Assembly (NCBI RefSeq): GCF_004798685.1
Contig: NZ_CP039291.1
Span: 1,116,001 to 1,180,000 of the forward strand
Direction: 5' to 3'
Length of the DNA stretch: 64,000 nt
Origin: Cellulomonas shaoxiangyii
GTDB taxonomy: Bacteria; Actinomycetota; Actinomycetes; Actinomycetales; Cellulomonadaceae
Every line of letters starts with the position of its first letter. Position 1 is the first letter of the stretch. Positions 31,656-55,036 of the stretch are shown piece by piece. A program made the translations under genes and the position numbers. A model generated the notes under the pieces. That model searched no databases, was not told the origin of the DNA, and saw nothing but the letters and a program-made list of their open reading frames with translations.

Positions 31656-31659
31656 CAAG

Positions 31660-32033: not shown

Positions 32034-32090
32034 ACCCTGGGCCGCTACCCGTTGCTCGTCATGGACGAGATCGGCTACATCCCGTTCTAA
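32034..32090 (+). pseudogene. IS21-type istB fragment
   Basis: The frame ending at TAA 32088 reads LGRYPLLVMDEIGYIPF. This is the Walker B region of IstB-type ATP-binding proteins of IS21-family elements (the family has LLxVDExGYxPF). Only about 17 codons remain, and the reading stops where the family normally continues with E/D-rich sequence. No istA and no inverted repeats are visible. It is a relic. Confidence 0.6.
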
Positions 32091-32146
32091 TCGGGGCCGT
32101 CGTCCTGGTTTCACGGCCGCACGAACCCGGCTGTGAATGACCTCAC

Positions 32147-33823: not shown

Positions 33824-33867
33824 ACGTGCCGCCGCACGAACGGCCCCTCACCTTCCTGGAGCACGAT

Positions 33868-34581
33868 GTGACGAACGAATCCGACCTCGAAGCAGTCAAC
33901 TCGCCGGAGTACCGCGCCGCGCTCATGGCGCAGATCGACTACGACTCCACGAGGGAGGGGCAGGCAAAGCTCCACGAGGCGCTGTCGGCCGCTGCTGACC
34001 CGGATGCGCGCCGCGACTTGCGAGCTCGCCAGATCGCGGGTGCCTCCTCCGCCAGATTCCGCAGGGAGCAGGTCGCTCTCATGCCGGCGGGCCGGGCTCC
34101 CGGCCGCCGTGACCCCGCGTTCACGACGCACGGGCGCCTTGCGCAGGCGCGCGAGGACCTCGCACGGCGTCTGGGCATCGCGGCCGCCGAGGCCGACGCC
34201 TTCGGATCCGTCATGCCCGGCACCTTGCAGGAGCTCGTGCGCATCGGCGCCGAGATCATCGAGGCGGACCGCGAACGGCGTGGTGCCGACTTTGTTCCCT
34301 CTATCCACCCAGGCACGATCTCCGAAGACGTCGAGGCATGCGCGCCGTGGGCACTGTCTGACTACGAGATGCCGGTCGAGCCCGGCGATGTCGGCGTCCT
34401 GGGAACACTCGGAGTCGCCGCCCGATGGGATCGGGAGCGACAGCGTGCGATCGTCGATGGGGATGCCGCCGCGGCTGAACGCTGGGGCTATGGCCTCGCA
34501 TCGGATCGCACCGGGTCCTGCGTCATCGCCACCGGACCTGACGTCGTCAAGTTCATCGCTCGGCACCACCCAACCGGATAG
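33868..34581 (+). CDS. Unrecognised protein downstream of the island membrane gene
   Basis: 237 residues from GTG 33868, chosen because GGAG lies seven bases before it; GTG 33826, two bases after the preceding stop, is a longer option. The protein is soluble and charged. Residues 1-70 look helical (TNESDLEAVNSPEYRAALMAQI, REGQAKLHEALSAAADPDARRDL), the middle carries AREDLARRLGIAAAEADAFGSVMPGTLQELVRIGAEIIEADRERRG, and the C-terminal half is mixed, ending GYGLASDRTGSCVIATGPDVVKFIARHH. No family or catalytic motif is recognised. The tight same-strand arrangement suggests an operon with the membrane-anchored gene. Confidence 0.6.
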   Translation: MTNESDLEAVNSPEYRAALMAQIDYDSTREGQAKLHEALSAAADPDARRDLRARQIAGASSARFRREQVALMPAGRAPGRRDPAFTTHGRLAQAREDLARRLGIAAAEADAFGSVMPGTLQELVRIGAEIIEADRERRGADFVPSIHPGTISEDVEACAPWALSDYEMPVEPGDVGVLGTLGVAARWDRERQRAIVDGDAAAAERWGYGLASDRTGSCVIATGPDVVKFIARHHPTG

Positions 34582-34694
34582 AACCGTCGGTCATCGCGGT
34601 CGGATTGAACGCGAAACGCATCGCGCCGGGATCGGCTGCTCGATGAGCCACACCTGAACGCTCAGCATGCCGTCAGGCGCCTCATTCAGCGCGG

Positions 34695-34965
34695 TCAACT
34701 TTGTTCGCCGGCGCCCGCGTGGTGCCGTCGCCGGCGGCGCGGCCGAGCGATCTCGACCTCCTCGGACGAGAACGTGCCGATCTTGTAGTGGGGCCCGTCC
34801 CCTCGTCCCCCGACCTCGCGCGCCCGCCGCCGCTCCTCGCCGATCAGCGAGGAGTACGACCCGTTGCGCCGCAGGCGGTCACCCTCGCACCTGCTTCAGG
34901 CCGCGTCGTAGGCGCCTAGGTACTCGAGCTTGCCGTGCGCGGTCAACGAGCGCGGGAGCCGTCCC
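34695..34965 (-). pseudogene. IS3-type transposase OrfA fragment
   Basis: Read on the minus strand, one frame gives HGKLEYLGAYDAA, a stop at 34898-34896, then GDRLRRNGSYSSLIGEERRRAREVGG and ends at a stop at 34697-34695. This follows the helix-turn-helix protein (OrfA/transposase_8) of actinobacterial IS3-family elements, where the family reads about KLxILxEYDAA...GALLRREGLYSSHIxEWRRARDAGA. The in-frame stop and the missing ends show decay. No inverted repeats or OrfB are seen. Confidence 0.6.
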
Positions 34966-34986
34966 CGCGCCGTCCTGGGTCATCAA

Positions 34987-35042
34987 ACGACCATCGTCGC
35001 GCACCGCCATCAAGACGACCATCGTCGCGCACCGCCATCAAG
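34987..35042. repeat. 28-bp perfect tandem duplication
   Basis: Two identical adjacent 28-bp units (beginning ACGACCATCGTCGCGC, ending CATCAAG) at 34987-35014 and 35015-35042. The preceding CATCAA looks like the end of a third, truncated copy. It has no spacers, so it is not a CRISPR array. Confidence 0.85.
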
Positions 35043-35162
35043 ACGAGCTCATGATCATGTACTCCCGGGTTTACGCCCTACCCCTGACGCGGACTTGCTA
35101 TCAACCACCGGCGACGGTCGTAGTCGTCGACTATCCCCCCGTTACGGCGCAGTTCTTGCCGA

Positions 35163-35190
35163 AAGGCCCCAGCAATCGCCCCGGGGCCTT
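35163..35190 (-). terminator. Terminator of the lipoprotein gene
   Basis: Arms AAGGCCCC and GGGGCCTT enclose a 12-base loop, and the minus strand continues into TTTC. It lies about 65 bp past the stop of the lipoprotein gene and near the right limit of the island. Confidence 0.55.
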
Positions 35191-35253
35191 CAGCGTTCTC
35201 GGGGTCGCGGCGTTCTCGGGGTCGGCGCGATCGCGGCCCGTGCCACGACGAGG

Positions 35254-36051
35254 TCAGTGCGGCGGGCGGAGGCCCGCGAGGGCGGTGCCCGACGTGCACC
35301 CCGCCTCGCCCGGTTGGAGCTGGACGGGTGTGACGTGCACGTCCTGGACCGTCCCGTCGATGCGGGCGACCAGGACGCAGTCGTCCTCGTCACCGCTGGC
35401 GACGCCGACGTCCGTGCCGTCGACGTGGACGAGCACGTCGGCGAGCGGGGGTCCGTCGGCCGCGGGCGGCGCGAGCAGCGCGGTGATGCGGTCGTCGACG
35501 TCGGCGGGATCCGGCTCGCCCGCGACGGGCAGCTCGCCGAGCACCCGCCATGCCGCCTCCCGGACGTCGGGGGCCGCGACCGGGTCGTCCGACGGCGGAG
35601 GCACGACGGGGTCGAGGTCGGCGGGGCAGTCGACGAGGCTGACGCCCTCGGTGCTGCCCCACTCGCCGACCTTGCCGTGCCGGTCGACGAGCACCTCGAA
35701 GCAGTGCGGGCCCGGGTCGGGGTCCGGCGGTCGCGGCACGACCGGGAACCCCCCGACGTCCTCGGGCGGCGGCGGGAGCGTGACGGCGAAGGTCAGCGTG
35801 CCGAGCACGTCGCCCCCGGCGGCGGCGGGGTCGATGCCGACGAGCACGGGCAGCGCGCCGCCGGCGGCGCGGGCGAAGGTCTCGATGTCGGGGGAGTACG
35901 ACGCCATGCGGGTGGTGCTCAGCAGCTCGAGGAGGTGCTCCCGCGCCTGCTCCTGGCCGGGGCTCAGAGCGGGCGCGGCGCAGCCGGCGAGCAGGAGCGC
36001 GGCGGCCGCCGGCAGCGCGGCGGTCGCCCGGCCCGGCCGTCGCGTCCCCAC
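35254..36051 (-). CDS. Putative lipoprotein
   Basis: 265 residues from GTG 36051. The N-terminus has the arginine-rich start MGTRRPGR, a hydrophobic stretch and a lipobox LLLAGC, so the mature protein would be lipidated at C24 and exported. The rest includes EQAREHLLELLSTTRMASYSPDIETFARAAGG, a Pro-rich segment VPRPPDPDPGP, GPHCFEVLVDRHGKVGEWGSTEGVSLVDCP and a second pair of Cys near the end (DEDDCVLVARIDG, EAGCTSG). Two disulfides are likely. I recognise no specific family. Normal high-GC composition shows it belongs to the core chromosome, not to the island. Confidence 0.75.
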   Translation of the reverse strand: MGTRRPGRATAALPAAAALLLAGCAAPALSPGQEQAREHLLELLSTTRMASYSPDIETFARAAGGALPVLVGIDPAAAGGDVLGTLTFAVTLPPPPEDVGGFPVVPRPPDPDPGPHCFEVLVDRHGKVGEWGSTEGVSLVDCPADLDPVVPPPSDDPVAAPDVREAAWRVLGELPVAGEPDPADVDDRITALLAPPAADGPPLADVLVHVDGTDVGVASGDEDDCVLVARIDGTVQDVHVTPVQLQPGEAGCTSGTALAGLRPPH

Positions 36052-36144
36052 CCGGCCACGCTAGCGGAGGCCTCGGTGCGCGTGCGGGTGCTCGCCACCC
36101 CGACCGTCTCGGTCGCGCCGCGCCCCGGTGCCTAGGCTGCGGGG

Positions 36145-36864
36145 ATGGCCACCCTCCTCCTCGTCCGGCACGGGCGCACGACCGCCAACACGGCCGGCGT
36201 CCTGGCGGGCCGCGCCGCCGGTGTGCGGCTCGACGCCGTCGGGCGCACCCAGGCCGAGCGTGCCGGCGAGCGGCTCGCCGGGGTCCCCCTGGTCGCGGTG
36301 GTGACCAGCCCGCTGGAGCGCTGCCGGCAGACCGCGCGCGCCCTCCTCGACCGCCAGGCCGCCGCACCCGTCCTCGCGGTCGACACCGGCCTCACCGAGT
36401 GCGACTACGGGCAGTGGCAGGGGCGCACCCTCGCGGACCTGGCCGGAGAGCCGCTGTGGTCCGTCGTGCAGACGCAGCCCTCGGCGGCCGTCTTCCCGGG
36501 CGGGGAGTCGCTGGCGGCGGTGCAAGCTCGCGCGGTCGCCGCCGTCCGGCGCCACGACGCGGCTGTCGAGGCCGAGCACGGCCCCGGCGCGGTGTGGGCC
36601 GCGGTGAGCCACGGCGACGTCATCAAGGCCGTGCTCGCCGACGCCCTCGGCATGCACCTCGACCTCTTCCAGCGCCTGCACGTCGGCCCCGCGTCGGTGT
36701 CCGTCGTGCGGTACGGGCCGCGCCGGCCGGACGTGATCACGACGAACACGGACAGCGGGGACCTGTCGTGGCTCGCGTCCGCCGCGCCCGCCGCGGACGC
36801 CGCGGTCGGGGGCGGCGCCGGCCACGAGGGCACCACGGGGGCGCACGAGCCGGCCCGCTCGTAG
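36145..36864 (+). CDS. Histidine phosphatase (phosphoglycerate mutase-like)
   Basis: 239 residues from ATG 36145. The catalytic LLVRHGRTTAN motif (R8, H9) is at the start; SPLERCRQTA, the acid ECDYGQWQG and VSHGDVIKAVL supply the remaining pocket residues. This is the branch-1 histidine phosphatase subgroup that precedes DUF3090 in actinobacteria (MSMEG_4193/Rv2135c type). The enzyme forms a phosphohistidine intermediate; its physiological substrate is uncertain. The next gene starts 10 bp after its stop, so it heads a three-gene operon. Confidence 0.9.
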   Translation: MATLLLVRHGRTTANTAGVLAGRAAGVRLDAVGRTQAERAGERLAGVPLVAVVTSPLERCRQTARALLDRQAAAPVLAVDTGLTECDYGQWQGRTLADLAGEPLWSVVQTQPSAAVFPGGESLAAVQARAVAAVRRHDAAVEAEHGPGAVWAAVSHGDVIKAVLADALGMHLDLFQRLHVGPASVSVVRYGPRRPDVITTNTDSGDLSWLASAAPAADAAVGGGAGHEGTTGAHEPARS

Positions 36865-36873
36865 ACTGGGGGC

Positions 36874-37425
36874 ATGCCGCAGGTCGTGCACGAGTTCGAC
36901 TGGCCGGACCGTGTCGTCGTCGGCACCGTCGGCCGGCCCGGGGCCCGCACCTTCTACCTCCAGGTGCGCGCCGGGGCCCGCTCGACCAGCGTCGCGCTGG
37001 AGAAGGAGCAGTCCGCGGTGCTCGCGGAGATGATCGACGAGCTCCTGGGCGAGCTGGTGGCCGACCCGAGCACGGGCGTGACCGTCCCCGCCGAGACCCC
37101 CGCCGAGCTGATCGACGACGACCCGCTGGACCAGCCCGTCGAGGAGCAGTTCCGGGCCGGGGCCGTGCGGCTGGGCTGGGACCCCCGCACCGCGCAGGTC
37201 GTCATCGAGGCCTACCCGCTCCGGCCCGACGACGACGACCTGGCGGGGGCGCCGGACGACGACGAGCCCGACGAGATGCTCCTGCTCCGGATCCCCGTGG
37301 GCACCGCGCGCGCCTTCGTGCAGCGCACCCGCCAGGTGGTGCGCGCCGGGCGACCCGCCTGCCCGCTCTGCGGCCGGCCGGTCGACGAGGACGGCCACGT
37401 CTGCGCGCTGCCCGACGGCGTGTGA
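36874..37425 (+). CDS. DUF3090 family zinc-ribbon protein
   Basis: 183 residues from ATG 36874. It opens VVHEFDWPDRVVVGTVGRPGARTFYLQVR and contains EEQFRAGAVRLGWDPRTAQVVIEAYPL, an acidic loop, LLLRIPVGTARAFVQRTRQVVRAGRPACPLCGRP and a terminal Cys (HVCALPDG), so a zinc site CxxC...C is probable. It is the middle gene of the conserved set phosphatase / DUF3090 / SCO1664-type. The function is unknown; the invariable linkage to a kinase-like partner suggests they act together. It overlaps the next gene by four bases. Confidence 0.9.
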   Translation: MPQVVHEFDWPDRVVVGTVGRPGARTFYLQVRAGARSTSVALEKEQSAVLAEMIDELLGELVADPSTGVTVPAETPAELIDDDPLDQPVEEQFRAGAVRLGWDPRTAQVVIEAYPLRPDDDDLAGAPDDDEPDEMLLLRIPVGTARAFVQRTRQVVRAGRPACPLCGRPVDEDGHVCALPDGV

Positions 37426-38195
37426 CGGCGTCCGAGGTCGACCTCGACGGCGGGGAGCTCGCGCTCGTCGGGCGGGTCACGGTCGCGTCGAACGCGACCT
37501 TCGTCGGCCGGATCGGGGACGTGCCGGTCGTGTACAAGCCCGTCGCCGGGGAGCGGCCGCTGTGGGACTTCCCCGACGGGACCCTCGCGCGCCGGGAGGT
37601 CGCGGCCTACCTGGTCTCCGAGACGCTCGGGTGGCGGGTGGTCCCGCGGACGTGGCTGCGCGACGGACCGCTCGGGCCCGGCATGGTGCAGCTCTGGCAG
37701 GAGCCCGACCCCGGGCAGGACCCCGTCGACCTGGTGCCGGCGTCGCGGGTGCCGACGCCCGGCTGGTGCGCCGTCCTGGAGGGCAGCGACGAGAACGGCC
37801 GCGCCGTGGCGCTCGTCCACGAGGACTCCGCCGCCCTGCGCCGCATGGCCGTGCTCGACGTGGTCGTGAACAACGCCGACCGCAAGGGCGGTCACGTCCT
37901 CCCGCAGGCCGACGGCCACCGGTACGGCGTGGACCACGGCGTGACGTTCCACGTCGAGCCGAGGCTGCGGACGGTGCTCTGGGGCTGGGTGGGGGACCCG
38001 CTGCGGCCGGACGAGCGGGAGGGCGTCGAGCGGGTGCGCGCGGGCCTCGACGGCGAGCTGGGAGACCGCCTGGCGGAGCTGCTGACCGACGCCGAGGTCG
38101 CGGCGGTCGCCGCGCGGTGCGACCGGCTGCTGGCCGACGGCCGGTTCCCCGGGCCGGACGGCGACATGCCGTCGGTCCCGTGGCCGCTGTTCTGA
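37422..38195 (+). CDS. SCO1664-type kinase-like protein
   Basis: 257 residues from GTG 37422, overlapping DUF3090. It has features of the PI3/4-kinase-like fold: VYKPVAGERPLWDFPDGTLARREVAAYLVSETLGW (an ATP-anchoring Lys and Glu), VLDVVVNNADRKGGHVL (catalytic Asp/Asn) and GVDHGVTFHVEPRLRTVLWGW (metal-binding Asp). It could phosphorylate a protein or small molecule. In several actinobacteria the mycothiol gene mshC follows this gene; here it does not. The C-terminus ends DMPSVPWPLF. Confidence 0.88.
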   Translation: MTASEVDLDGGELALVGRVTVASNATFVGRIGDVPVVYKPVAGERPLWDFPDGTLARREVAAYLVSETLGWRVVPRTWLRDGPLGPGMVQLWQEPDPGQDPVDLVPASRVPTPGWCAVLEGSDENGRAVALVHEDSAALRRMAVLDVVVNNADRKGGHVLPQADGHRYGVDHGVTFHVEPRLRTVLWGWVGDPLRPDEREGVERVRAGLDGELGDRLAELLTDAEVAAVAARCDRLLADGRFPGPDGDMPSVPWPLF

Positions 38196-38289
38196 CGGCT
38201 CACGGGTAGTCGGCCTAGGGTCGCGGCCCGCCGGGGCCCGTCCTATGGTCGAAATGTCAGAGCTTGCACCGAACGGCGGGGGCATCACC

Positions 38290-39955: not shown

Positions 39956-40028
39956 TCGCGCCCGTGCGGGCGACACGGGCCCTGACAGGACGTCGGGTGT
40001 CGGCGGCGTCCGGCAGGATGGCGCCACC

Positions 40029-41426
40029 ATGGAGCGCTGGACCGTCGAGGACGTGCAGGCCGCTGCGCCGGACGCGTCGTCGCTGGCGGCGGCCCGGCGG
40101 CTGGCGCAGCCGGGTCCGTGGTCGCAGACCGGCGCGAGCGACGCGCTGCTGTGGGGCCGCTGCCAGGGCTCGGGTCGGACGCCGTACCAGGTGAGCGTCG
40201 ACCTGCAGGCCCGGGCGTACCGCTGCTCGTGCCCGAGCCGCAAGTTCCCGTGCAAGCACGCCCTCGCGCTCCTGCTGCTGTGGTCGTCCGGCGCGGTGGG
40301 TGACGGAGCCGACGCCGCGCCGTTCGCCCAGGAGTGGGCCGACGAGCGCGCGTCCCGGGCGGCCGGGCGCGCCGAGCGGGCCGCGCGCCCCGAGGCGCCG
40401 GTCGACCCCGAGGCGGCGGAGCGACGGCGCGCGCAGCGGGTGGCGACCATGTCGGCCGGGCTCGACGACCTCGCCCTGTGGCTCGCCGACCTCGTGCGCG
40501 CCGGGCTCGCGGCGGCGCGCCGGCAGCCGCTGTCGTGGTGGGACGCCACCGCGGCGCGGCTCGTCGACGCGCAGGTGCCCGGCCTGGCGGAGGAGGTGCG
40601 CTCCGTCGGCGGGCGTGTGCAGCACGACGACGACTGGGCGTCGGTCCTGCTCGCGGCGCTCGGGCGGTGGTGGACGGTGGTGCAGGCCTGGCGCCGGCGC
40701 GACGAGCTCGACGAGGCGGTGCTCGGCGACCTGCGGACGCTGCTCGGCTGGGCGCAGCCCGCCGACGAGGTGCGCGCGCGCGACCGGCTGAGCGACACGT
40801 GGCTCGTGCTGGGCGCGTTCCGCACGCAGGACGGGCGCGTCCAGCAGCAGCGGACGTGGCTGCGCGGCGAGGCGAGCGGTGAGGTCGTGCAGGTCCTCGA
40901 CTTCGCGGTCGGCGGCGACCCGCTCCCGGTGGCGCAGTCGGTCGGCGCGCTGCTGCGCGGGGACGTCGCCCGCTACCCCGGCGCGTCCGCGCGGCGTGCG
41001 ACGTTCGTGACGCCGCCCGAGGTCGCGGGCACGGCCGGTCGCCTGCCCGCAGGCGGTGACGTCGCGGCGGCGCACGCCACCCTCGCGCGTGCGCTCGCGG
41101 CGAACCCGTGGACGCGGCGCGTCCCGGTCGTCCTCGCCGGTGCACGCCTCGACGTGGTGCGCACGGCGGCGGACCACGGGGCGGTGGTCGTCCCGGGAGC
41201 GGGCCCCGGAGCGGGCGGTGCGGGGCACGGAGCGGGCGGCGCCGACGTGGTGGTCGTCGACCGCGACGGACGCGGCGTGCCGGTGCGCGGCGACGTGGAA
41301 CCCTGGGGCCTGGTCGCGCGGTCCGGCGGTGCACCCGTCGACCTGTTCGGGGAGCTCGAGGACGGCACGTTCCGGGTGCTGGCGGCGTCCGGTCTGGCCG
41401 ACGCGCCCGGGGTGGTGGGCGCATGA
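40029..41426 (+). CDS. SWIM zinc-finger protein, first gene of MoxR-VWA operon
   Basis: 465 residues from ATG 40029. The SWIM finger is visible as C66-S-C68...C75-K-H77 (YRCSCPSRKFPCKHALAL), preceded by YQVSVDLQ. The rest is mainly helical, with repeated Arg/Ala/Glu-rich segments (about 100-170), a Trp-rich region around LSWWDATAARLVDAQ and a beta-rich end with two Gly/Ala-rich loops (GAGPGAGGAGHGAGG). SWIM domains bind DNA or proteins. It is coupled to the next gene by an ATGA overlap (41423-41426). This family is known to accompany DUF5691 and MoxR genes; its task is not described. Confidence 0.85.
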   Translation: MERWTVEDVQAAAPDASSLAAARRLAQPGPWSQTGASDALLWGRCQGSGRTPYQVSVDLQARAYRCSCPSRKFPCKHALALLLLWSSGAVGDGADAAPFAQEWADERASRAAGRAERAARPEAPVDPEAAERRRAQRVATMSAGLDDLALWLADLVRAGLAAARRQPLSWWDATAARLVDAQVPGLAEEVRSVGGRVQHDDDWASVLLAALGRWWTVVQAWRRRDELDEAVLGDLRTLLGWAQPADEVRARDRLSDTWLVLGAFRTQDGRVQQQRTWLRGEASGEVVQVLDFAVGGDPLPVAQSVGALLRGDVARYPGASARRATFVTPPEVAGTAGRLPAGGDVAAAHATLARALAANPWTRRVPVVLAGARLDVVRTAADHGAVVVPGAGPGAGGAGHGAGGADVVVVDRDGRGVPVRGDVEPWGLVARSGGAPVDLFGELEDGTFRVLAASGLADAPGVVGA

Positions 41427-42988
41427 GGGGGGAGCCCGACGTCGACCGGTGGTGGGGCGCGCTGACCGGGGCCGCGCTCGTCGGGACCGCCCGCGGACGC
41501 GTCCCCGCCGTGCCGGCGGCGCTCGGCGTGCCGGCGCGCACCGACGCCGACGCGCCCACCGCGCTGCTCGACGCCGCCGCCCTCGGTGCGGCGCTGCGCG
41601 CTGCCGGTGCGGAGCCCGCGGCCGGCCGCGCGGTGCCCGAGCCGTGCCCGCCGGACGGCGTACCCGAGGCGCCACCGCGCGCCGCGCAGGTGCTCGCTCT
41701 CGTGCTCACGCAGCCACCGGTGGGACGTGAGCTGCGCGATGCGCTGCTGGAGCGGTGCTGCGCGGCCGTGGCCGCGGGCGGGCGGCGCGTCCCGCACGAG
41801 CTGCTGCCCGCGCTGCTCGCGGAGGGCACACGACGGCCCGCGGTGCGTGCCCGCGTCCTGCCCGTCGTCCACGCCCGCGGCCGCTGGCTGGCCGCTCGCC
41901 GGCCGGAGTGGGCGTGGGCCGTCGGGGGCGGGGAGGAGCCGCAGCCCGACGACGACCCCGCGGTCCTGCGGCTCCCGTCGGGCGCCCTCGTCACCCGGCT
42001 CGCGGAGCTGCGCGGCACGGACCCCGACCGTGCGCGACGCCTGGTCGCGGCGGCCCTGGCGACGACCGGCGCGGAGACCCGCGCGGCGCTGCTGCGCACG
42101 CTGGCCACCGGCCTGGGTCCGGCGGACGAGCCGCTGCTCGAGGCCGCCCTCGACGATCGCGCCGCGGCCGTGCGCGCCGCCGCGGCGGCCGCCCTCGACG
42201 GCCTGCCGACGTCGGCGCGGGCGGCCCGCCTCGCCGCCCGCCTCACGCCGTTGGTGTCGGTGCACGGTCTGCTGCGCAGACGCCTCGAGGTGGCCGCGCC
42301 GGGCCCGCTCGACGACGCGGCCCGCCGGGACGGGATCGGGGTCGGGCCGGGCGCCGCGCGCGACGCCGCGGTGCTCTCGGCGCTCGTGACCGGCGCGCCG
42401 CTGGACGTCCTGCGCCGCGCCACGGGCACGACCCCCGCGGCTCTGCTGCGGCTCGACGGCGAGCGCGTGCTGCGCGCCGCGATCCGGCGCGCGACCGTCG
42501 CGCAGCGGGACGTGGGCTGGGCGCGGGCGCTGCTCGCCGACGAGTGGGACGCCGCCGCGGCGGCGGTCCTCCCGCCCGACGAGGCGCAGGCGGCGGCGCG
42601 GCGCTGGCTCGCGTCGACCCCCGCCGACGCGCTCGGTTCGGTGGCGCACGCCCTGCCCGGGCCGTGGGACGAGCCGCTGAGCGTGGCGGTCGCCGAGGCG
42701 CTCGTGCGCACCGTCGCGGACCCCGCGACCACGCGCGCGCCCGTCCTGCCGGCTGAGCCGTTCGCGCGGTCGCTGCACCCGGCCGCCCGCGAGCCGCTCG
42801 CGCGCGCCCGTGCGGCGGCCGACCGTGCCGCCGCGGACGCGGAGCGCGCCGTCGAGCGCGCGCGTGACCCCCAGGAGTCCGGGCGCCTCGCGCTCGCCGG
42901 CTCCGTGTTCCGGGGCCGGGCCCACGCCCTCCAGGACCTGACCCAGCACCTGTCCCTGCTCGCCACGATCGACGAGGCCCTCGCATGA
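41423..42988 (+). CDS. DUF5691 family helical-repeat protein
   Basis: 521 residues from ATG 41423. The sequence is almost wholly alpha-helical, with HEAT-like spacing: LRGTDPDRARRLVAAALATTGAETRAALLRTLATGLGPADEPLLEAALDDRAAAVRAAAAAALDGLP. A conserved-looking block RWWGALTGAALVGTARG opens the protein and DLTQHLSLLATIDEAL closes it. HEAT-like repeats suggest a scaffold. Both junctions are four-base overlaps (with the SWIM gene and with moxR), so all three are made together. I infer that it is a structural or adaptor subunit of the MoxR-VWA assembly. Confidence 0.82.
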   Translation: MRGEPDVDRWWGALTGAALVGTARGRVPAVPAALGVPARTDADAPTALLDAAALGAALRAAGAEPAAGRAVPEPCPPDGVPEAPPRAAQVLALVLTQPPVGRELRDALLERCCAAVAAGGRRVPHELLPALLAEGTRRPAVRARVLPVVHARGRWLAARRPEWAWAVGGGEEPQPDDDPAVLRLPSGALVTRLAELRGTDPDRARRLVAAALATTGAETRAALLRTLATGLGPADEPLLEAALDDRAAAVRAAAAAALDGLPTSARAARLAARLTPLVSVHGLLRRRLEVAAPGPLDDAARRDGIGVGPGAARDAAVLSALVTGAPLDVLRRATGTTPAALLRLDGERVLRAAIRRATVAQRDVGWARALLADEWDAAAAAVLPPDEAQAAARRWLASTPADALGSVAHALPGPWDEPLSVAVAEALVRTVADPATTRAPVLPAEPFARSLHPAAREPLARARAAADRAAADAERAVERARDPQESGRLALAGSVFRGRAHALQDLTQHLSLLATIDEALA

Positions 42989-44160
42989 CGTCGCAGCACC
43001 CCGAGCCGGGCAGCACCGGCACCCACACCGCCGGCACCGGCCCTGCCGGGACGGGCGCGGCCGGCGCCGGTGCGGCCCCCGACGGGCCCGTCCTGCGCCC
43101 GCACGCCGAGGACGCCTACGCCGGCGAGCTGGCCGCGCTGGCGGCCGCCGACGACCGGCCTCGTCCGCCGGGGTGGCGGCTGTCCCCGTGGGCCGTCACG
43201 ACGTACCTCGTCGGCGGCACGCTCGCCGACGGCACCGAGGTGAGCGTGAAGTACCTCGGCTCGCGCCGGCTCATGGAGATCGCCGTCGCGTCGCTCGCCA
43301 CCGACCGGGCGCTGCTGCTGCTCGGCGTGCCGGGCACGGCCAAGACCTGGGTGGGGGAGCACCTCGCCGCCGCGGTGAGCGGCGACTCGACGCTCGTCGT
43401 GCAGGGCACGGCGGGGACGCCGGAGGAGCAGCTGCGCTACGGGTGGAACTACGCACGTCTGCTCGCGGACGGCCCGACGGCCGAGGCGGTCGTGCCGAGC
43501 CCCGTGATGCGCGCGATGCGGGACGGCACGCTCGTGCGGATCGAGGAGCTGACGCGCATCCCGGCGGACGTCCAGGACGCCCTCATCTCGATCCTGTCGG
43601 AGAAGACCCTGCCCGTGCCCGAGCTGCGCACCGAGGTGCAGGCGCGGCCCGGGTTCAACGTCATCGCCACGGCGAACGACCGCGACAAGGGCGTCAACGA
43701 CCTGTCGTCGGCGCTGCGACGGCGGTTCAACACGGTCGTCCTGCCGCTGCCCGACACGCTCGAGCAGGAGGTCGAGATCGTGCGCACGCGCGTGGCGGCC
43801 GTCGGGCGCTCGCTCGAGCTGCCGCCGGAGCTGGCGGGGCTCGCCCAGATCGAGCGGGTCGTGACGGTGTTCCGCGAGCTGCGGGGCGGCGTCACGCTCG
43901 ACCGCCGCACGACGGTCAAGTCGCCGTCCGCGACGCTGTCCACGGCCGAGGCCATCTCCGTCGTCACGAACGGCACCGCGCTGGCGGCGCACTTCGGCGA
44001 CGGTGTGCTGCGCGCCGAGGACGTCGCGGCCTCGCTCACCGGTGCGGTCGTGCAGGACCCCGTGCAGGACCGGCTGGTGTGGCAGGAGTACCTGGAGACC
44101 GTGCTGCGCGACCGTGCCGGCTGGGAGGACCTGTACCGGGCGTGCCGGGAGCTGGTGTGA
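42985..44160 (+). CDS. MoxR-type AAA+ ATPase
   Basis: 391 residues from ATG 42985. A disordered Gly/Thr/Ala-rich leader (about 40 residues) precedes the ATPase. Walker A is GVPGTAKT (114-121, K120), Walker B is TLVRIEELTR, sensor 1 is VIATAND, and the arginine-finger region is LSSALRRRFNTVVLPLP. The family hallmark is the helix-2 insertion and the ELxR-type Walker B. MoxR ATPases act as chaperones that remodel or activate target proteins together with VWA proteins. Here the VWA is the fifth gene of the operon. The stop overlaps the next start (GTGA). Confidence 0.93.
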   Translation: MTSQHPEPGSTGTHTAGTGPAGTGAAGAGAAPDGPVLRPHAEDAYAGELAALAAADDRPRPPGWRLSPWAVTTYLVGGTLADGTEVSVKYLGSRRLMEIAVASLATDRALLLLGVPGTAKTWVGEHLAAAVSGDSTLVVQGTAGTPEEQLRYGWNYARLLADGPTAEAVVPSPVMRAMRDGTLVRIEELTRIPADVQDALISILSEKTLPVPELRTEVQARPGFNVIATANDRDKGVNDLSSALRRRFNTVVLPLPDTLEQEVEIVRTRVAAVGRSLELPPELAGLAQIERVVTVFRELRGGVTLDRRTTVKSPSATLSTAEAISVVTNGTALAAHFGDGVLRAEDVAASLTGAVVQDPVQDRLVWQEYLETVLRDRAGWEDLYRACRELV

Positions 44161-46406
44161 CGGGCACTGGCGGGGGTGCGCCGGCCGGCGCGGTGCACGT
44201 GCTGGGCGTGCGGCACCATGGCCCGGGCAGCGCGCGGTCCGTCCTCGAGGCGCTCGAGGAGCTCGACCCGGACGTGGTGCTCGTCGAGGGGGCGCCGGAG
44301 CTCGCGCCGCTGGTGCCGTTCGTCGCCGACCCCGGCCTCGTGCCGCCCGTCGCGGGGCTCGTGTACGCCGTCGACGAGCCCGGGCGGGCGTCGTTCTACC
44401 CGATGGCCGAGTTCTCGCCGGAGTGGGTCGCGTTGCGGTGGGCGGTCGCGCGCGGGCGGCGCGTGGAGCTCGCCGACCTGCCGGCGGCGCACCTGCTGGC
44501 CACGCGGGCCGCGGAGGACGCGGAGGCGGGGGTGCCGGTGCTGCGCGACCCGGTGGGCGACCTCGCGCGCGCCGCCGGGTACGACGACCCGGAGCGGTGG
44601 TGGGAGGACGCCGTCGAGCACCGCTCGGGCACCGCCGTCGCCCGGTTCGACGCGCTGCGCGAGGCCATGGCGGCCGTGCGCGCGGCCGGACCCGGCGACG
44701 ACCTCGAGACGCGTCGGCGCGAGGCGGCGATGCGCCGGTCGGTGCGCGCGGCGCTGCGCGCCGGCGCCGCGCGGGTCGCGTTCGTCTGCGGCGCGTACCA
44801 CGCGCCCGCCGTGCACCCGGACGCCCGGGTGCCGGTCAAGGAGGACACCGCGCTGCTGGCGGGCCTGCCCAAGGTCAAGGTCACCGCGACGTGGGCGCCC
44901 TGGACGGCGGGCCGGCTGGCCGTCGCGAGCGGGTACGGCGCGGGCGTCACGGCCCCGGGGTGGTACCAGCACCTGTTCGTGGAGGGTGCGCGTGCCGGTG
45001 CCACGCCCGAGGACGTGACGGCGTCGTGGCTCGTGCGCGTCGGCCGTGCCCTGCGCGACGAGCAGCTGGATGCGCCGCCGGCGTCGATCGTGGAGGCGAC
45101 GCGGCTCGCGCAGACGCTCGCCGTGGTGCGCGGGCGGCCGTCGGTCGGTCTGACCGAGGTCACGGACGCCGCGCAGACCGTGCTGTGCGGCGGGTCGACC
45201 GTCCCGCTCGAGCTCGTGCACCGCACGCTCGTGGTCGGCGAGGCGATGGGTGCCGTCCCCGAGAGCGTGCCGATGGTGCCGCTCGCGGCCGACCTCGCGC
45301 GGCGGCAGCGCGCGCTGCGCATGGCGCCGTCGGCGTCCGTGACCGTGCTGCAGCTCGACCTGCGCAAGGAGCAGCACCGCGAGCGCTCGTTGCTGCTGCA
45401 CCGGCTGCTGCTGCTGGACGTGCCGTGGGGCCGGCCGGCGGCGGTCACGGCGCGCACGACGGGGACGTTCCGCGAGGCGTGGCAGCTCGAGTGGGTGCCG
45501 GAGCTGTCGGTGCGCCTCGTCGAGGCGGGGCTGCGGGGCACGACCGTGCCGGCGGCCACGGAGGGCGTGGTGCGCGAGCGTGCCGCCGCCGCGGCGGACC
45601 TGTCCGCGCTCGCGGACCTCGTCGAGCAGTGCCTGCTCTGCGACCTTCCCGACGCGCTGACCGTAGTCCTCGCCGCCCTCGAGCGGCAGACGGCGCAGCA
45701 GCACGACCCGCTGACGCTGCTGCGGACCGTCGAGCCGCTCGCGCGCACGTGCCGGTACGGCGACGTGCGCGCGGCCGACACCGCGGGGGTGGCGCGGGTC
45801 CTGCGGACGGTCGTGACGCGCGTCGCGGTGGGGCTGCGGGCGGCGTGCACGGCGCTGGACGACGACGCCGGCGCGCTGGTGCGCGAGGCGGTCGAGTCGG
45901 CCCACCGTGGCGTCCGGCTGCTGGACGAGCCCGCGCTCGACGGGCCGTGGCGACGCGGCCTCACCGATCTGGCCCGGGACGAGCGCGTGCACGCCGCCGT
46001 GTCGGGCCGGGTGCACCGGCTGCTGCTCGACGACGGCACGCTGGAGGTCGTCACCGTGGCGGAGCGCATGTCGCGGCGGCTGTCCGTGGGGGCGCCCGCG
46101 CCGGCCGGTGCGGCCTGGCTCGACGGGTTCCTCGAGGGCGACGCGCTCCTGCTGGTGCACGACCCGACGCTGCTGTCGCTCGTCGACGAGTGGGTCGCGG
46201 GCGTGGACGACGCCACGTTCGAGGACCTCCTGCCGCTGCTGCGCCGCGCGTTCGCGCGGTTCTCCGACGCCGAGCGGCGCGAGGTCGGGCACCGCCTGCG
46301 GGCCCCCGGCGTGCTCCGCGCGCAGGTGACCCGCCTCGACGTGGACCGCGCGCTGCCCGCGGTGCACGCGACCGCGCGCCTGCTCGGGCTGGAGCCGGTC
46401 GCGTGA
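44157..46406 (+). CDS. DUF5682 family protein, TraB/EreA-like N-terminus
   Basis: 749 residues from GTG 44157. The N-terminal part reads HVLGVRHHGPGSARSVLEALEELDPDVVLVEGAPE, and later RVAFVCGAYHAPAV and KVTATWAPWTAGRL. The order GxRHxGxGS, hydrophobic strand then VEG, and CGxYH resembles the active-site pattern of TraB/EreA/ChaN-type proteins (putative metal hydrolases or peptidases), an inference from motif spacing. The C-terminal two-thirds is a helical region (VTVLQLDLRKEQHRERSLLLHRLLLLDVPWG, EAWQLEWVPELSVRLVEAGLRGTTVPAAT) with conserved segments of DUF5682. It may be the enzymatic effector of the operon. Confidence 0.82.
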   Translation: MTGTGGGAPAGAVHVLGVRHHGPGSARSVLEALEELDPDVVLVEGAPELAPLVPFVADPGLVPPVAGLVYAVDEPGRASFYPMAEFSPEWVALRWAVARGRRVELADLPAAHLLATRAAEDAEAGVPVLRDPVGDLARAAGYDDPERWWEDAVEHRSGTAVARFDALREAMAAVRAAGPGDDLETRRREAAMRRSVRAALRAGAARVAFVCGAYHAPAVHPDARVPVKEDTALLAGLPKVKVTATWAPWTAGRLAVASGYGAGVTAPGWYQHLFVEGARAGATPEDVTASWLVRVGRALRDEQLDAPPASIVEATRLAQTLAVVRGRPSVGLTEVTDAAQTVLCGGSTVPLELVHRTLVVGEAMGAVPESVPMVPLAADLARRQRALRMAPSASVTVLQLDLRKEQHRERSLLLHRLLLLDVPWGRPAAVTARTTGTFREAWQLEWVPELSVRLVEAGLRGTTVPAATEGVVRERAAAAADLSALADLVEQCLLCDLPDALTVVLAALERQTAQQHDPLTLLRTVEPLARTCRYGDVRAADTAGVARVLRTVVTRVAVGLRAACTALDDDAGALVREAVESAHRGVRLLDEPALDGPWRRGLTDLARDERVHAAVSGRVHRLLLDDGTLEVVTVAERMSRRLSVGAPAPAGAAWLDGFLEGDALLLVHDPTLLSLVDEWVAGVDDATFEDLLPLLRRAFARFSDAERREVGHRLRAPGVLRAQVTRLDVDRALPAVHATARLLGLEPVA

Positions 46407-47653
46407 GCGGCGACGAGGCCGTGCGCGCGGCGCCGGCCGACGACGTGGCGCCCGAGCTGGCTCCCATGGGCGACGTCCGGGGTGGTGGCCCGTCGCGCGA
46501 CCGCGCGACCCGGTGGCGGCTCGTGCTCGGCGACCCCGCGGACGACGCGCTCGGCGGGGTGGCGCTGAGCGGCGACGACGTGCGCCGGGACGAGGTCCTG
46601 CGCGAGCTCTACGGCGACGGTGCCGGCGCGGGCCGCCGCGGTGGGCTCGGCGGCTCGTCGCCGCGCGTGGCGCGCTGGCTCGGTGACATCCGGTCGTACT
46701 TCCCGTCGTCCGTCGTCCAGGTCATGCAGGAGGACGCGATGTCGCGGCTCGGGCTGCGCGAGCTGCTGCTCGAGCCCGAGATGATGGCCGCCGTCCAGCC
46801 GGACCTCGCGCTGGTCACGACGCTGGTCGGGCTCGGGCGTGTCGTGCCGGAGCACTCGCGGGAGACCGCGCGCCGGGTCGTCCGCACGGTCACCGACGAG
46901 CTGGAGGAGCGGCTGCGGCGCCGCACCGTGCAGGCGGTCACCGGGGCGCTCGACCGCTCGGCGCGCACGCACCGGCCGCGACCCGCGGACATCGACTGGG
47001 GCGCGACCATCGCCGCCAACCTCCGGCACTACCTGCCCGAGCACCGCACGGTCGTGCCCGAGCGGCTCGTGGGGCACGCGCGCCGCACGTCGCAGGTCCA
47101 GCGCGACATCGTGCTGTGCATCGACCAGTCGGGGTCCATGGCGGAGTCCGTCGTGTACGCGAGCGTGTTCGGCGCGGTCCTCGCCTCGCTCCGGTCGGTC
47201 GCGACGCGGCTCGTCGTCTTCGACACCGAGGTCGTCGACCTCACGGACGCCATGGACGACCCGGTGGACGTGCTGTTCGGCGTGCAGCTGGGCGGTGGCA
47301 CCGACATCCGGCGGGCGCTCGCGTACGCGCAGGGCCTCGTGGAGCGGCCCACCGAGACGGTCCTCGTGCTGATCAGCGACCTGTACGAGGGCGGCATCGC
47401 GGAGGAGATGGTCGCGCGCGCGGCCGCGCTCGTGCGCTCGGGGGTGACGGTCGTCGCGCTGCTCGCGCTCAGCGACTCCGGCGCGCCGTCGTACGACCGC
47501 CGGCACGCGGCCGCGCTCGCGGAGGTCGGCGTGCCGGCGTTCGCGTGCACGCCGGACCTGTTCCCGGACCTCATGGCCGCGGCCATCGAGCGTCGCGACC
47601 TCGGGCAGTGGGCGTCCGCGCACGGCATCGTCACGGCGCACGCCGACGGCTGA
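46403..47653 (+). CDS. VWA-domain protein, MoxR partner
   Basis: 416 residues from GTG 46403, overlapping DUF5682. The N-terminal 230 residues are helical and charged (RVARWLGDIRSYFPSSVVQVMQEDAMSRLGLRELLLEPEMM). The von Willebrand A domain has a complete metal-ion-dependent adhesion site: D241-Q-S243-G-S245 (IDQSGSMAES), T300 in GGGTDI and D326 in ISDLYEGG. No signal peptide or membrane helix is present, so it acts in the cytosol. With MoxR it probably forms an ATP-dependent remodelling pair. The gene ends seven bases before the convergent GGT gene. Confidence 0.92.
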   Translation: MSGDEAVRAAPADDVAPELAPMGDVRGGGPSRDRATRWRLVLGDPADDALGGVALSGDDVRRDEVLRELYGDGAGAGRRGGLGGSSPRVARWLGDIRSYFPSSVVQVMQEDAMSRLGLRELLLEPEMMAAVQPDLALVTTLVGLGRVVPEHSRETARRVVRTVTDELEERLRRRTVQAVTGALDRSARTHRPRPADIDWGATIAANLRHYLPEHRTVVPERLVGHARRTSQVQRDIVLCIDQSGSMAESVVYASVFGAVLASLRSVATRLVVFDTEVVDLTDAMDDPVDVLFGVQLGGGTDIRRALAYAQGLVERPTETVLVLISDLYEGGIAEEMVARAAALVRSGVTVVALLALSDSGAPSYDRRHAAALAEVGVPAFACTPDLFPDLMAAAIERRDLGQWASAHGIVTAHADG

Positions 47654-47659
47654 CGCGCG

Positions 47660-49684
47660 TCAGCGCCGCGGGCGCACCACCCCCGCGCTGCCGCCGCCGC
47701 GGCGCTCGGGTTCCGCGACCGACAGCAGCGTGCGGTGGTCGAGGAACTCGATCGCGGTCGCGGCGCCGATCTCCGGCGTGTCGGCGAACGTGTGCCCGAG
47801 CGCCTCGAGCTCGGGGCGCGGGAAGCCGGGCTCCGCCTGGACGGCCGCCGTGTTCCGCGGCGTCGCCCGGGGCGCGGCGACGGCCTCGTCCAGCCGCATG
47901 CCGAGATCGAGGCGGTTGACGAGCACCTGCAGGACCGTGGTGATGATCGTCGAGCCGCCGGGGGAGCCGAGCGCGAGCAGCGGGCGACCGTCCTGCAGCA
48001 CGACGGTCGGCGCCATGGAGCTGCGCGGCCGCTTGCCCGGGCCGGGCAGGTTCGGGTCCGCGCCTCCCTGCGTGTCGGTGAAGCTGAAGTCCGTCAGCTC
48101 GTTGTTCAGCAGGAAGCCGCGGTCGGGAACGACGACGCCGTTGCCGCCGGTGGACTCGATGGTGAGCGTGTACGCGACGACGTTGCCCCAGCGGTCGGCG
48201 GTCGTCAGGTGCGTCGTCGACGTGCCCTCGGTGCCCTCCGGGCCCGCCGAGCCGGTGCCCGCGCAGTCCCCGTACCGGCCGTCCGGCGACCCGGGCGCGA
48301 CCGGCTTGGGCAGGGCGGCGTCCGGGTCGATCAGGCACGCACGCTCGGCGGCGAAGCCGTCGGACAGCAGCTCGGCCAGCGGGACGTCGACGAACCCGGG
48401 GTCGCCGACGTACCGGTTGCGGTCCGCGAACGCGAGCGCGCTCGCCTCCAGGTAGTGGTGCAGGGTCTGCGTGCTGCCCAGCGTCGCCACGTCGACCGTC
48501 TCGAGGATGTTCAGCGCCTCGCCCACCGTGGAGCCGCCGGACGACGGCGGCGCCATGCCGTACACGTCGAGCCCGCGGTAGGTCACGCGCGTCGGGTCGC
48601 GGCGGAGCGCCTCGTAGGCGGCGAGGTCGCCGAGCTCGAGCAGGCCGGGCCGCACGACGCGGTCGCTGCCGGGCACGACCGGCGGCCGCTGCGCGGTGTC
48701 GACGATCTCCTGCGCGAGGCGTCCGGTGTACAGGGCGTCGACGCCGCGCAGGGCCAGCAGCGTGTAGGTCCGCGCGAGGTCGCGGTTCCGGAAGACCGAG
48801 CCGACCCGCGGCGGCGCGCCGCCCGGGAGGAACAGCTCGGCGGTGGACGAGAAGTCGTCGAACCGGTCGGCGTTCGCCGCCGTCTGGTCCGCGAACGTCC
48901 GGTCCACCACGAAGCCGTGCTGCGCGACCCGGGTCGCGCCGGCGAGCGCGCGGCGCAGGCCGATCGTGCCCCACGCGTCGAGCGCGGCCTCCCACGTCGC
49001 CGGGGTGCCGGGCACGCCCACCGACAGGCCGGACGTGACGGCCTCGGCGAACGGGATGGGGGCGCCGCCCTCGACGAACGCGTCGGGACCCATCGCCGCG
49101 GGCGCGGTCTCGCGCCCGTCGATCGTGTGCACCCGGCCCGTGCGCGCCTCGTAGAACACGAAGAAGCCGCCGCCGCCGATGCCGGCGGAGTACGGCTCGG
49201 TGACGCCGAGCGTCGCGGCCGCGGCGACCGCCGCGTCGACGGCGTTGCCTCCGCCGCGCAGCACGTCGAGGCCGACCCGCGTGGCGTCGGGGTCGACGGT
49301 CGCGACGGCCCCGCCCGTGCCGACCGCGACGGGCACCTTCGCGGGGGGCCGCCACCCGTGGCCGCCGCCGTGCCACCCGCCGCGGCCGCCGTCGAGGGTC
49401 TCGCCCTCTGGCACCGCACCCTCCGGCACCGCACCCTCCGGCACCGCGCCCTCCGGCCCGGCGCCCTCCGGCCCGGCGCCCTCGGGTGCCGCGCCCCCGG
49501 GCGCCTGGGCGATGAGCGCCTCGACGTCCGACGGCGTCACGTCGCCGGCCCCCACGTCGGCGGTGCCGGCGGCGGGCCCGGGCCCGCCGGGCGGCGCCGC
49601 GGCGACGGGCGTGACGCCGGCGGCGAGGGCGAGGACGGCGGCCGCGAGGACGCCGAGCGGACGGGCGGACGACGGTGTGCGCAT
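47660..49684 (-). CDS. ggt: Secreted gamma-glutamyltransferase
   Basis: 674 residues from ATG 49684. A Sec signal (about 1-29, LGVLAAAVLALAAGVTPVAAA) is followed by a linker of PEGA-type pentapeptide repeats (about 65-95) and a Gly/His patch. The GGT fold includes GTGGAVATVDPDATRVGLDVLRGGGNAVDAAVAAAATLGV and YSAGIGGGGFFVFYEA. The autoprocessing nucleophile is T490 at TTHLTTADRWGN, giving a small subunit of about 185 residues with PGGSTIITTVLQVL. The enzyme cleaves gamma-glutamyl bonds (glutathione, polyglutamate or related). Actinobacteria of this type use mycothiol, so the substrate may be external. Confidence 0.9.
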   Translation of the reverse strand: MRTPSSARPLGVLAAAVLALAAGVTPVAAAPPGGPGPAAGTADVGAGDVTPSDVEALIAQAPGGAAPEGAGPEGAGPEGAVPEGAVPEGAVPEGETLDGGRGGWHGGGHGWRPPAKVPVAVGTGGAVATVDPDATRVGLDVLRGGGNAVDAAVAAAATLGVTEPYSAGIGGGGFFVFYEARTGRVHTIDGRETAPAAMGPDAFVEGGAPIPFAEAVTSGLSVGVPGTPATWEAALDAWGTIGLRRALAGATRVAQHGFVVDRTFADQTAANADRFDDFSSTAELFLPGGAPPRVGSVFRNRDLARTYTLLALRGVDALYTGRLAQEIVDTAQRPPVVPGSDRVVRPGLLELGDLAAYEALRRDPTRVTYRGLDVYGMAPPSSGGSTVGEALNILETVDVATLGSTQTLHHYLEASALAFADRNRYVGDPGFVDVPLAELLSDGFAAERACLIDPDAALPKPVAPGSPDGRYGDCAGTGSAGPEGTEGTSTTHLTTADRWGNVVAYTLTIESTGGNGVVVPDRGFLLNNELTDFSFTDTQGGADPNLPGPGKRPRSSMAPTVVLQDGRPLLALGSPGGSTIITTVLQVLVNRLDLGMRLDEAVAAPRATPRNTAAVQAEPGFPRPELEALGHTFADTPEIGAATAIEFLDHRTLLSVAEPERRGGGSAGVVRPRR
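49411..49485. repeat. 15-bp tandem repeat in GGT linker
   Basis: Five adjacent 15-bp units (GCACCGCACCCTCCG and variants) encode the PEGAV/PEGAG pentapeptides of the secreted gamma-glutamyltransferase linker. Confidence 0.8.
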
Positions 49685-49775: not shown

Positions 49776-50348
49776 CTACGGCAGCCGCGCGGGCAGCCGC
49801 CGTACGGCATCCCCGGCGCGCGCCGGGTCGAGCGGGACGGGGCTCACGAGCACGGCGGGCCCCCGGTGCAGCAGGCCGTCGGTGAGCGGCATGCAGCGGA
49901 CGCCGCCGCGTCCTTGCATCGCCGCGTGCGCACCGGGCGCGAGCACGCGGTCCATCCACGCGCAGGGGTGTGCGGGCCGGCCGACGCGCAGCCGCACGGC
50001 GTCGCCGCCCGACTCCAGGACGACCTCCGTGCCCAGCAGGGGCGCGAGCTCGGCGCCGCGGAGCACGACGTTGCGCCGCGTCAGCAGGGGGTCGAGCGGG
50101 TCCGTGCCGAGCTCGGCGGCGATCGCCTCGAGCGCCTCGACGGCGAACAGGGTGACCGCGGCGTCCATGTGGGCGGCCTTGCCGTAGAAGCGGTCGCCGA
50201 CGAGGCCCTTGCCGGCGACCACCTCGACGCGGTCCGCGTCGGTCGTCGGGACGTCGGCGGCACCGTCGCGCGGCCGGCCGAAGTACGCGTGCTCGGGGGA
50301 GACGAGCAGGTGCAGGACCTCCACGTCGTACCGGTAGGGGGCGCTCAC
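49776..50348 (-). CDS. MOSC-domain protein
   Basis: 190 residues from GTG 50348. The MOSC core is recognised by GKGLVGDRFYGKAAHMDAAVTLFAVEAL, LTRRNVVLRGAELAPLLGTEV and LRVGRPAHPCAWMDRVLAPGAH, which contains the conserved Cys that binds the sulfur substrate. MOSC proteins transfer sulfur in molybdenum-cofactor metabolism. A molybdenum-dependent oxidoreductase is encoded about 4 kb away, but a functional link is only suggestive. The gene is separate from its neighbours. Confidence 0.85.
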   Translation of the reverse strand: MSAPYRYDVEVLHLLVSPEHAYFGRPRDGAADVPTTDADRVEVVAGKGLVGDRFYGKAAHMDAAVTLFAVEALEAIAAELGTDPLDPLLTRRNVVLRGAELAPLLGTEVVLESGGDAVRLRVGRPAHPCAWMDRVLAPGAHAAMQGRGGVRCMPLTDGLLHRGPAVLVSPVPLDPARAGDAVRRLPARLP

Positions 50349-54967: not shown

Positions 54968-55036
54968 GAGGACATCGAACACGCCGGGGGCGCCGCGCGA
55001 CAGACCCTGCGCGCGGCGGGCCGTTCGGGCGGGGCG

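Follow-up and report, generated by a model that had tools for sequence, protein, structure and literature searches.

A five-gene set related to E. coli yehLMPQ

We analysed a 64,000-nucleotide stretch of the Cellulomonas shaoxiangyii genome (contig NZ_CP039291.1, positions 1,116,001 to 1,180,000; G+C 70-80%), hereafter the window, in which five genes follow one another on the same strand at 40029-47653 in the order SWIM, DUF5691, MoxR, DUF5682 and VWA, as read from translations and Pfam. An original prediction from the letters alone had described this layout, and its coordinates, frames and Pfam domains agree with ours. The genes, all on the plus strand, encode a SWIM zinc-finger protein of 465 amino acids (aa) (40029..41426; Pfam SWIM PF04434, 31.8 bits), a DUF5691 protein of 521 aa that reads as an all-helical, HEAT-like scaffold (41423..42988; PF18944, 310 bits), a MoxR AAA+ ATPase of the YehL type with 391 aa (42985..44160; AAA_5, 133 bits), a DUF5682 protein homologous to YehM (44157..46406; PF18934, 766 bits) with 749 aa if started at GTG 44157 or 737 aa if started at GTG 44193, and a CoxE-type VWA protein of 416 aa homologous to YehP (46403..47653; VWA_CoxE PF05762, 182 bits). 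Together they form a genuine set that is widespread among bacteria and related to the uncharacterised Escherichia coli genes yehLMPQ.

The E. coli K-12 row reads yehI (DUF4132), yehK, then yehL (MoxR), yehM (DUF5682), yehP (VWA) and yehQ (SWIM), and yehL-yehM-yehP are homologous to the MoxR, DUF5682 and VWA genes of the window in the same order. In phmmer searches, the window MoxR matched YehL at 1.2e-76 (39.6% identity over 359 aa), DUF5682 matched YehM at 4.7e-32 and VWA matched YehP at 7.2e-73 (36% over 367 aa); the window SWIM and DUF5691 proteins found no match at the yeh locus. YehL is listed in PMC3893208 as one of seven named MoxR subfamilies. The mark of this subfamily, a VWA cofactor gene close by, is present in the window as the YehP homologue at 46403-47653. 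The set had been presented as undescribed, and this was rejected on account of the E. coli homologue yehL-yehM-yehP and the named YehL subfamily. The accompanying statement that no function is described for it agrees with searches of an open-access library, which turned up none in print for DUF5682 or yehLMPQ.

The letters at the four junctions are, in gene order, ATGA, ATGA, GTGA and GTGA, and a 4-base overlap is possible at each. Among co-directional non-system pairs less than 100 bp apart in the collected loci, 106 of 342 had a 4-base overlap. Above this background (Fisher test) were the overlaps of SWIM with DUF5691 (48/76, p 3e-7), DUF5691 with MoxR (60/65, p 3e-21) and DUF5682 with VWA (93/108, p 1e-24), but not that of MoxR with DUF5682 (46/115, p 0.09), which was missing from the Terrabacter loci and most of the Nocardioides-type loci among those listed. 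In the window the latter overlap depends on the GTG at 44157; because the 737-aa database form of the protein agrees with the alternative start at 44193, there may be a 32-base gap instead. Thus the four overlaps originally read from the sequence fit in all their letters, but the one between MoxR and DUF5682 is doubtful.

Gene order and fusions among relatives

Gene order was surveyed in 121 loci (the window, L002-L081 and L102-L141, without the E. coli locus and without 20 short loci), of which 119 had a called DUF5682 gene and two, L021 and L135, had none. Of these 119, 118 had MoxR at most three genes from DUF5682, and the remaining one sits on a 4.4-kb contig. A conserved linked set resembling an ATPase machine is supported, in keeping with the earlier reading. 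VWA lay equally close in 112 of 119; the others were three contig ends and four loci in which VWA is fused to DUF5682. Both Pfam domains were found in one of these fusions (L127), and the other three (L119, L128 and L129) align along it. All five genes were collinear in 53 loci including the window, and Streptomyces-like loci have SWIM-DUF5691 transcribed divergently from the core genes.

The five-gene order recurs across Actinomycetota, Deinococcota and Pseudomonadota, and SWIM and DUF5691 are fused in Bacteroidota. The order is complete in Rhizobium, is interrupted in Deinococcus by one small unnamed gene separating MoxR and DUF5682, and is present in Methylosinus with the VWA gene in pieces. 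In Hymenobacter, SWIM and DUF5691 form one 1009-aa protein in which the finger is kept, and one extra gene lies 3' of MoxR. In Fusobacterium, SWIM, MoxR, DUF5682 and VWA were matched in order, and tblastn detected no DUF5691 at that locus. The outcome that had been named as damaging, wide distribution with random order, was not observed: the distribution is wide and the gene order non-random. The best cross-family identities were about 84% for MoxR, 75% for VWA, 63% for DUF5682, 55% for SWIM and 45% for DUF5691. The DUF5682::VWA and SWIM::DUF5691 fusions suggest two sub-assemblies.

Three further arrangements were distinguished. In the E. coli-like type B, DUF4132, sometimes with HEAT or WGR domains, is mostly upstream (downstream in L103; in the DUF5682/VWA interval in L154), and a SWIM-type gene lies 3' of VWA, with the CxC..CxH pattern in eight of nine checked and missing in L130. 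Type C (4 loci) has VWA, MoxR and DUF5682 with two more genes, fused into one in L131; those scanned had no significant Pfam family. In type D (4 loci), a DUF4132-like gene and a very large one are accompanied by MoxR and the DUF5682::VWA fusion, and three of the four loci also have a CxCx5CxH-finger gene, whose finger in L128 and L119 lies in frame just 5' of the called start. Some single loci showed further features. Two large tandem YehI-related genes precede MoxR in L107 (766-7991), with Pfam DUF4132 in one of them, and a TerD-domain gene adjoins DUF5682 in one type C locus (L118, 6134-7270), being absent from the other three. On a Methylosinus trichosporium plasmid, an unannotated VWA homologue beside DUF5682 matches in three pieces (L152, 9214-10361) and may be broken; insertion-sequence genes are close by.

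The MoxR and VWA proteins

MoxR carries the Walker A motif GVPGTAKT (43324-43347, plus strand) and the Walker B motif VRIEELTR (43534-43557, plus strand). The latter follows R-[VIFL]-EE-[LIV]-TR, not the classical DE, in all 114 distinct MoxR proteins (103 recognised by pattern and 11 by eye). Of the two motifs first reported as intact, Walker A is confirmed, whereas Walker B is the subfamily form R-x-E-E-x-T-R. Relatives of this protein among PDB sequences include midasin and NorQ. In the VWA protein, the metal ion-dependent adhesion site (MIDAS) reads DQSGS (47123-47137, plus strand), and DxSxS is kept by every one of 116 distinct VWA proteins, 115 of which have DQSGS and one DQSAS, in line with the complete metal site reported before. 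A search of PDB sequences with the VWA protein gave no match.

DUF5682 as a candidate hydrolase

The protein database holds at least 7818 relatives of DUF5682. Its N-terminal alpha/beta domain (44193..44987, plus strand) reads as TraB/EreA/TIKI-like, and its C-terminal half is a helical repeat of HEAT-like character (model residues 455-705; 45555..46307, plus strand). The TraB/EreA-like pattern indicated by the original prediction can be traced, on the plus strand, to H8-H9 (44214-44219), E32 (44286-44288) and H203 (44799-44801). In the structural model these residues are placed at the ends of strands 2-6, 28-32 and 195-200, the strand-end order His - Glu - His of the TraB/EreA/TIKI superfamily. 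E32, E77, D95 and H203 are kept in each of the 36 rows chosen from types A-D, and the His and acid residues persist although the sequences are only about 25-35% identical to the window protein. DUF5682 resembles TraB/EreA/ChaN/TIKI in its ordered His, Glu and G-A-x-H pattern and in the helix motif R-[E/D/N]-x-x-[M/W]; it differs in having no Pfam match to them, a long helical-repeat half fused to it and a tie to an AAA+ motor.

Catalysis in the TIKI superfamily is attributed in PMC6254334 to a 2His/2Glu set. The first Glu of the RRSP-like set is absent from DUF5682, which reads G-V-R-H-H-G with no Glu two positions before either His. Pfam PF01963 and PF05139 had no match at E <=1, either to the full-length protein or to residues 1-236; searches of PDB sequences gave no match with the single protein and three chance rows with a profile. 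The Foldseek comparison that had been proposed as a check was made with the DUF5682 and DUF5691 models and returned nothing at E < 0.001 for either. Among the 50 VIA rows listed for DUF5682, no description names EreA or ChaN, but this rules nothing out. The TraB yardstick consisted of relatives of E. coli YbaP and is hence narrow; it was used because members of TraB and of haem-binding (ChaN) in Pfam are scarce across the phylum samples (2/246 and 1/149). A YbaP search of PDB sequences to identify 7w5z_E was without result. The N-terminal domain of DUF5682 is probably a hydrolase, predicted to be a peptidase or esterase.

The SWIM and DUF5691 proteins

The SWIM finger C66-C68-C75-H77 (40224-40259, plus strand) is unchanged in 24 of 24 aligned rows, and its pattern is present in 70 of 81 distinct SWIM-labelled genes, ten of the remaining eleven being short calls (203-343 aa). 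The eleventh, a SWIM-type protein (L073, 7121-8239), has a low-complexity serine/glycine stretch where the finger would be expected. Of seven long DUF5691 proteins examined (those with names being from Nocardia), six are fusions of a SWIM body to DUF5691 without a finger, and a search of about 700 bases upstream of one such locus found none. When the window SWIM protein was compared by hhalign with the type B SWIM set including YehQ, the 34-column finger alone aligned (probability 33%, E 4.5e-4).

DUF5691 of the window is all-helical and HEAT-like, as the earlier reading of a HEAT-like scaffold had it. Its profile found two chance rows only among PDB sequences, and comparison with DUF4132-protein profiles was without result (2.2%). 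Upstream of SWIM genes, the 8-mer ACTGACAA and two shifted forms occurred in 21 of 81 stretches, compared with 1-2 of 243 controls, an enrichment that may be explained by kinship of the loci. An SOS box (<=1 mismatch) was found in 5 of the 81 stretches and in 17 of the 243 controls.

Distribution and transfer

In a sample of 60 genomes of the genus, which the nearest named proteins suggest to be Cellulomonas, DUF5682 was found in 13 and DUF5691 in 8, all inside the 13 (P 5e-7); in a sample of 296 from the phylum, DUF5682 was found in 21 and DUF5691 over the cut-off in 18, all inside the 21 (P 5e-26). These P values ignore the kinship of the genomes and leave three weak, below-cut-off DUF5691 matches outside the set uncounted. 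In the phylum sample, all eight listed genomes of genus code g8, Streptomyces-like by tree, had DUF5682.

In a MoxR tree of 61 rows made by a quick method, the window and a Cellulomonas relative fall among Nocardioides and Intrasporangiaceae, and six same-genus copies fall elsewhere. A single clade of these eight copies was rejected (approximately unbiased test, p 0.00011), the group having been chosen after identities had been inspected and without the long-branched same-genus copy L102. The window DUF5682 agrees with this tree, being about 60-63% identical to Nocardioides/Terrabacter and 47-50% to the six genus copies. One same-genus genome (G299) holds three DUF5682 systems (L102, L103 and L104), one with SWIM-DUF5691 and two grouping with the E. 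coli-like type; one of these two is on a short contig.

A same-genus relative without DUF5682 (L142) keeps the flanking genes. In blastn of window positions 30-51 kb, homology ends at 39971 and restarts at 47667, which delimits a presence/absence unit at 39972..47666, and L142 holds a 239-aa methyltransferase-like gene at this site. The operon is gained or lost as one block, the direction being indistinguishable from the single window/L142 pair. In E. coli, yehL-yehQ were matched in 5301 of 5426 genomes, with >=80% coverage in 5162; the genome-reduced strain DGF-298 is reported in PMC10652928 to be without yehI to yehQ. In a plasmid collection, 27 of the 72,556 records matched, including some of megabase length that may be chromosomes. 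One plasmid typed as conjugative, of Sinorhizobium sp. RAC02, carries an E. coli-like MoxR-DUF5682-DUF4132(WGR)-VWA-SWIM row (L154, 5860-14774). Strictly vertical and strictly mobile inheritance were both rejected, both patterns being observed. Strictly vertical descent with a known housekeeping role had been named as a finding that would count against the prediction; no housekeeping role came to light, and the set is not inherited in a strictly vertical way.

Proposed mechanism

The five proteins probably build an ATP-driven machine controlling a hydrolase-like protein. More specifically, we give about an even chance to one ATP-driven complex in which MoxR-VWA is the motor, DUF5682 the working subunit and SWIM-DUF5691 a recruiting arm, with a conditional role in stress or quality control. 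What the sequences show is homology, conserved order, fusions, conserved residues and block gain or loss. A YehL-type MoxR ring and the CoxE-type VWA adaptor would form the motor in NorQ-NorD fashion, the C-terminal HEAT-like half of DUF5682 would dock onto the VWA protein, and the TraB/EreA/TIKI-like domain would be the predicted hydrolase of the working subunit. SWIM and the DUF5691 scaffold would form a second sub-assembly for client recruitment or signal sensing, possibly involving nucleic acid. ATP hydrolysis might gate or remodel DUF5682 or its client, and the function would be conditional, in stress or quality control, and dispensable in the laboratory.

A motor core of MoxR, VWA and DUF5682 and a recruiting arm of SWIM and DUF5691 are suggested because of the two fusions. 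The exchange of the arm for SWIM with DUF4132/WGR in type B points to variable input and constant output, a picture that fits the conservation falling from MoxR through VWA, DUF5682 and SWIM to DUF5691. DUF5682 may be the effector gated by MoxR-VWA, as first proposed, which is helped by the DUF5682::VWA fusion and the conserved candidate catalytic residues. Complex formation, catalysis, gating, signal and role are the steps that we infer.

Genomic context and alternative explanations

A possible, though doubtful, alternative is a maturation chaperone like CoxD-CoxE or NorQ-NorD, in which MoxR and VWA would remodel a client for metal or cofactor insertion and DUF5682 would be the client or a non-catalytic adaptor. 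The CoxE-type VWA (182 bits) and NorQ among the PDB relatives of MoxR are consistent with this, as is the derivation of MoxR-vWA pairs from CoxD-CoxE stated in eLife 2020. Its likelihood rose slightly because of a sulfite-oxidase-like molybdoenzyme gene (54341-54982, minus strand; E 2.9e-6 to bacterial sulfite oxidase) and a MOSC-domain gene (49776-50348) nearby; an FAD/NAD-binding oxidoreductase gene (53524-54330, minus strand) adjoins the former. The sulfite-oxidase-like gene, the one possible metalloenzyme client nearby, nevertheless lies 6.7 kb downstream on the opposite strand. The operon's immediate neighbours are of other kinds (DUF2382/PRC, a gene without assignment and gamma-glutamyltranspeptidase), and no metalloenzyme or Rubisco client was found among the 10 flanking genes by Pfam scan. 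Across 21 loci the commonest flank families (best 25 of 146) are transporters, acetyltransferases and other mixed functions. Furthermore, DUF5682 is an obligate partner with conserved acid and His residues, which argues against a mere client.

An anti-phage or conflict system, in which SWIM (in type B, WGR-DUF4132) would sense foreign or damaged nucleic acid and MoxR-VWA would free the DUF5682 effector, is decidedly unlikely. It would fit the patchy occurrence within the genus (13/60), the non-monophyletic genus copies, block gain or loss, plasmid copies including one on a conjugative plasmid, the swapped outer parts and the related MoxR-vWA conflict systems published in PMC7159879. The flanks also match more PADLOC families than controls: at 1e-10, 62 families for 133 flank genes (21 loci, <=4 per side of labelled genes, 90-900 aa; 8 are type B partner genes) versus 3 for 109 control genes from seven same-genus loci chosen non-randomly, for their homology to one flank of the window. 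However, among the 25 flank families listed, 16 are PD-T4-6 models with one member each and several members occur only in mad3 (5), mad2 (4) and AriA (3), of which the first two were also matched by control genes. The excess comes through a few single genes, and no recurrent defence context was seen. None of the five operon proteins matches PADLOC at E <=0.01, and the core sits at >=80% coverage in the great majority of E. coli genomes. A scan of viral contigs by two short patterns gave 23 pattern matches and no relative, and 1 of 50,697 phage records (MT835988.1) has a DUF5682 relative. This 14-kb faecal record, named Bacteriophage sp. (10638-12743; 28.5% identity), may be a bacterial fragment. 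The searches of PADLOC, phages and viral contigs lend no firm support to a defence reading. That DUF5682 is a conserved but catalytically dead scaffold, its TraB-like N-terminus merely binding a ligand or peptide, is very improbable: one superfamily Glu position is absent and the TIKI relative PMT is described in PMC6254334 as being without the catalytic set, but the His and acid residues have been kept at about 25-35% identity to the window protein.

Returning to the ATP-driven complex, a bolder version holds that DUF5682-VWA and the YehL-type ring make up an ATP-gated hydrolase of a new class, in which a TraB/TIKI-type peptidase or esterase is under AAA+ control and exchangeable zinc-finger/HEAT modules (SWIM-DUF5691, or SWIM with WGR-DUF4132) do the steering, and that almost all E. 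coli strains have it, with no assay of it found by our searches; we consider this rather unlikely. Should DUF5682 prove to be a TraB/EreA-type hydrolase controlled by an AAA+ motor, it would represent an unrecognised energy-dependent enzyme complex across several phyla. The presence of the same core in E. coli K-12 opens the question to direct test in a laboratory strain.

A second variable block lies elsewhere in the window at 31700-38283, beside tRNA-Met (31582-31656), and is absent from L142. Its G+C is lower, 0.70-0.72 in parts, and no Pfam domain was found in six open reading frames scanned at 31704-36064.

Comparison with known systems

MoxR-vWA ternary conflict systems share with the window a MoxR and VWA pair plus a large third part (PMC7159879). 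The third components given there, VMAP, iSTAND, FtsH and beta-propeller, were not found in the five proteins (Pfam, E <=1), bpMoxR staying below its cut-off at 19.4 of 27 bits, and the main text of that paper has no occurrence of 'yeh', 'swim', 'trab' or 'duf5'. CoxD-CoxE, NorQ-NorD and CbbQ-CbbO resemble the window in combining a MoxR ring with a VWA adaptor, the window VWA being CoxE-type with a MIDAS; in NorQ-NorD, a MoxR hexamer works with a single VWA adaptor, which presumably touches the client through its MIDAS (PMC9976466). The operon differs from these in that the one candidate metalloenzyme gene seen nearby, the sulfite-oxidase-like one, lies 6.7 kb away rather than adjacent, and in its further obligate or near-obligate partners. 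The closest known relative, yehL-yehM-yehP-yehQ, shares homologous MoxR, DUF5682 and VWA genes in the same order with a SWIM protein adjoining. In contrast to the window, the E. coli set has no DUF5691 and possesses the DUF4132 protein YehI, in whose stead DUF5691 stands in the window; its SWIM gene is 3' of the core, whereas SWIM-DUF5691 is upstream in the window. The core was already known by name, as yehLMPQ and the YehL subfamily, but, as far as our searches reach, not by function. Within the same limits, the new points are that the five-gene set is linked to yehLMPQ, that fusions occur, that the outer module is swapped, that the block is present or absent as a whole, and that DUF5682 reads as TraB/EreA-like.

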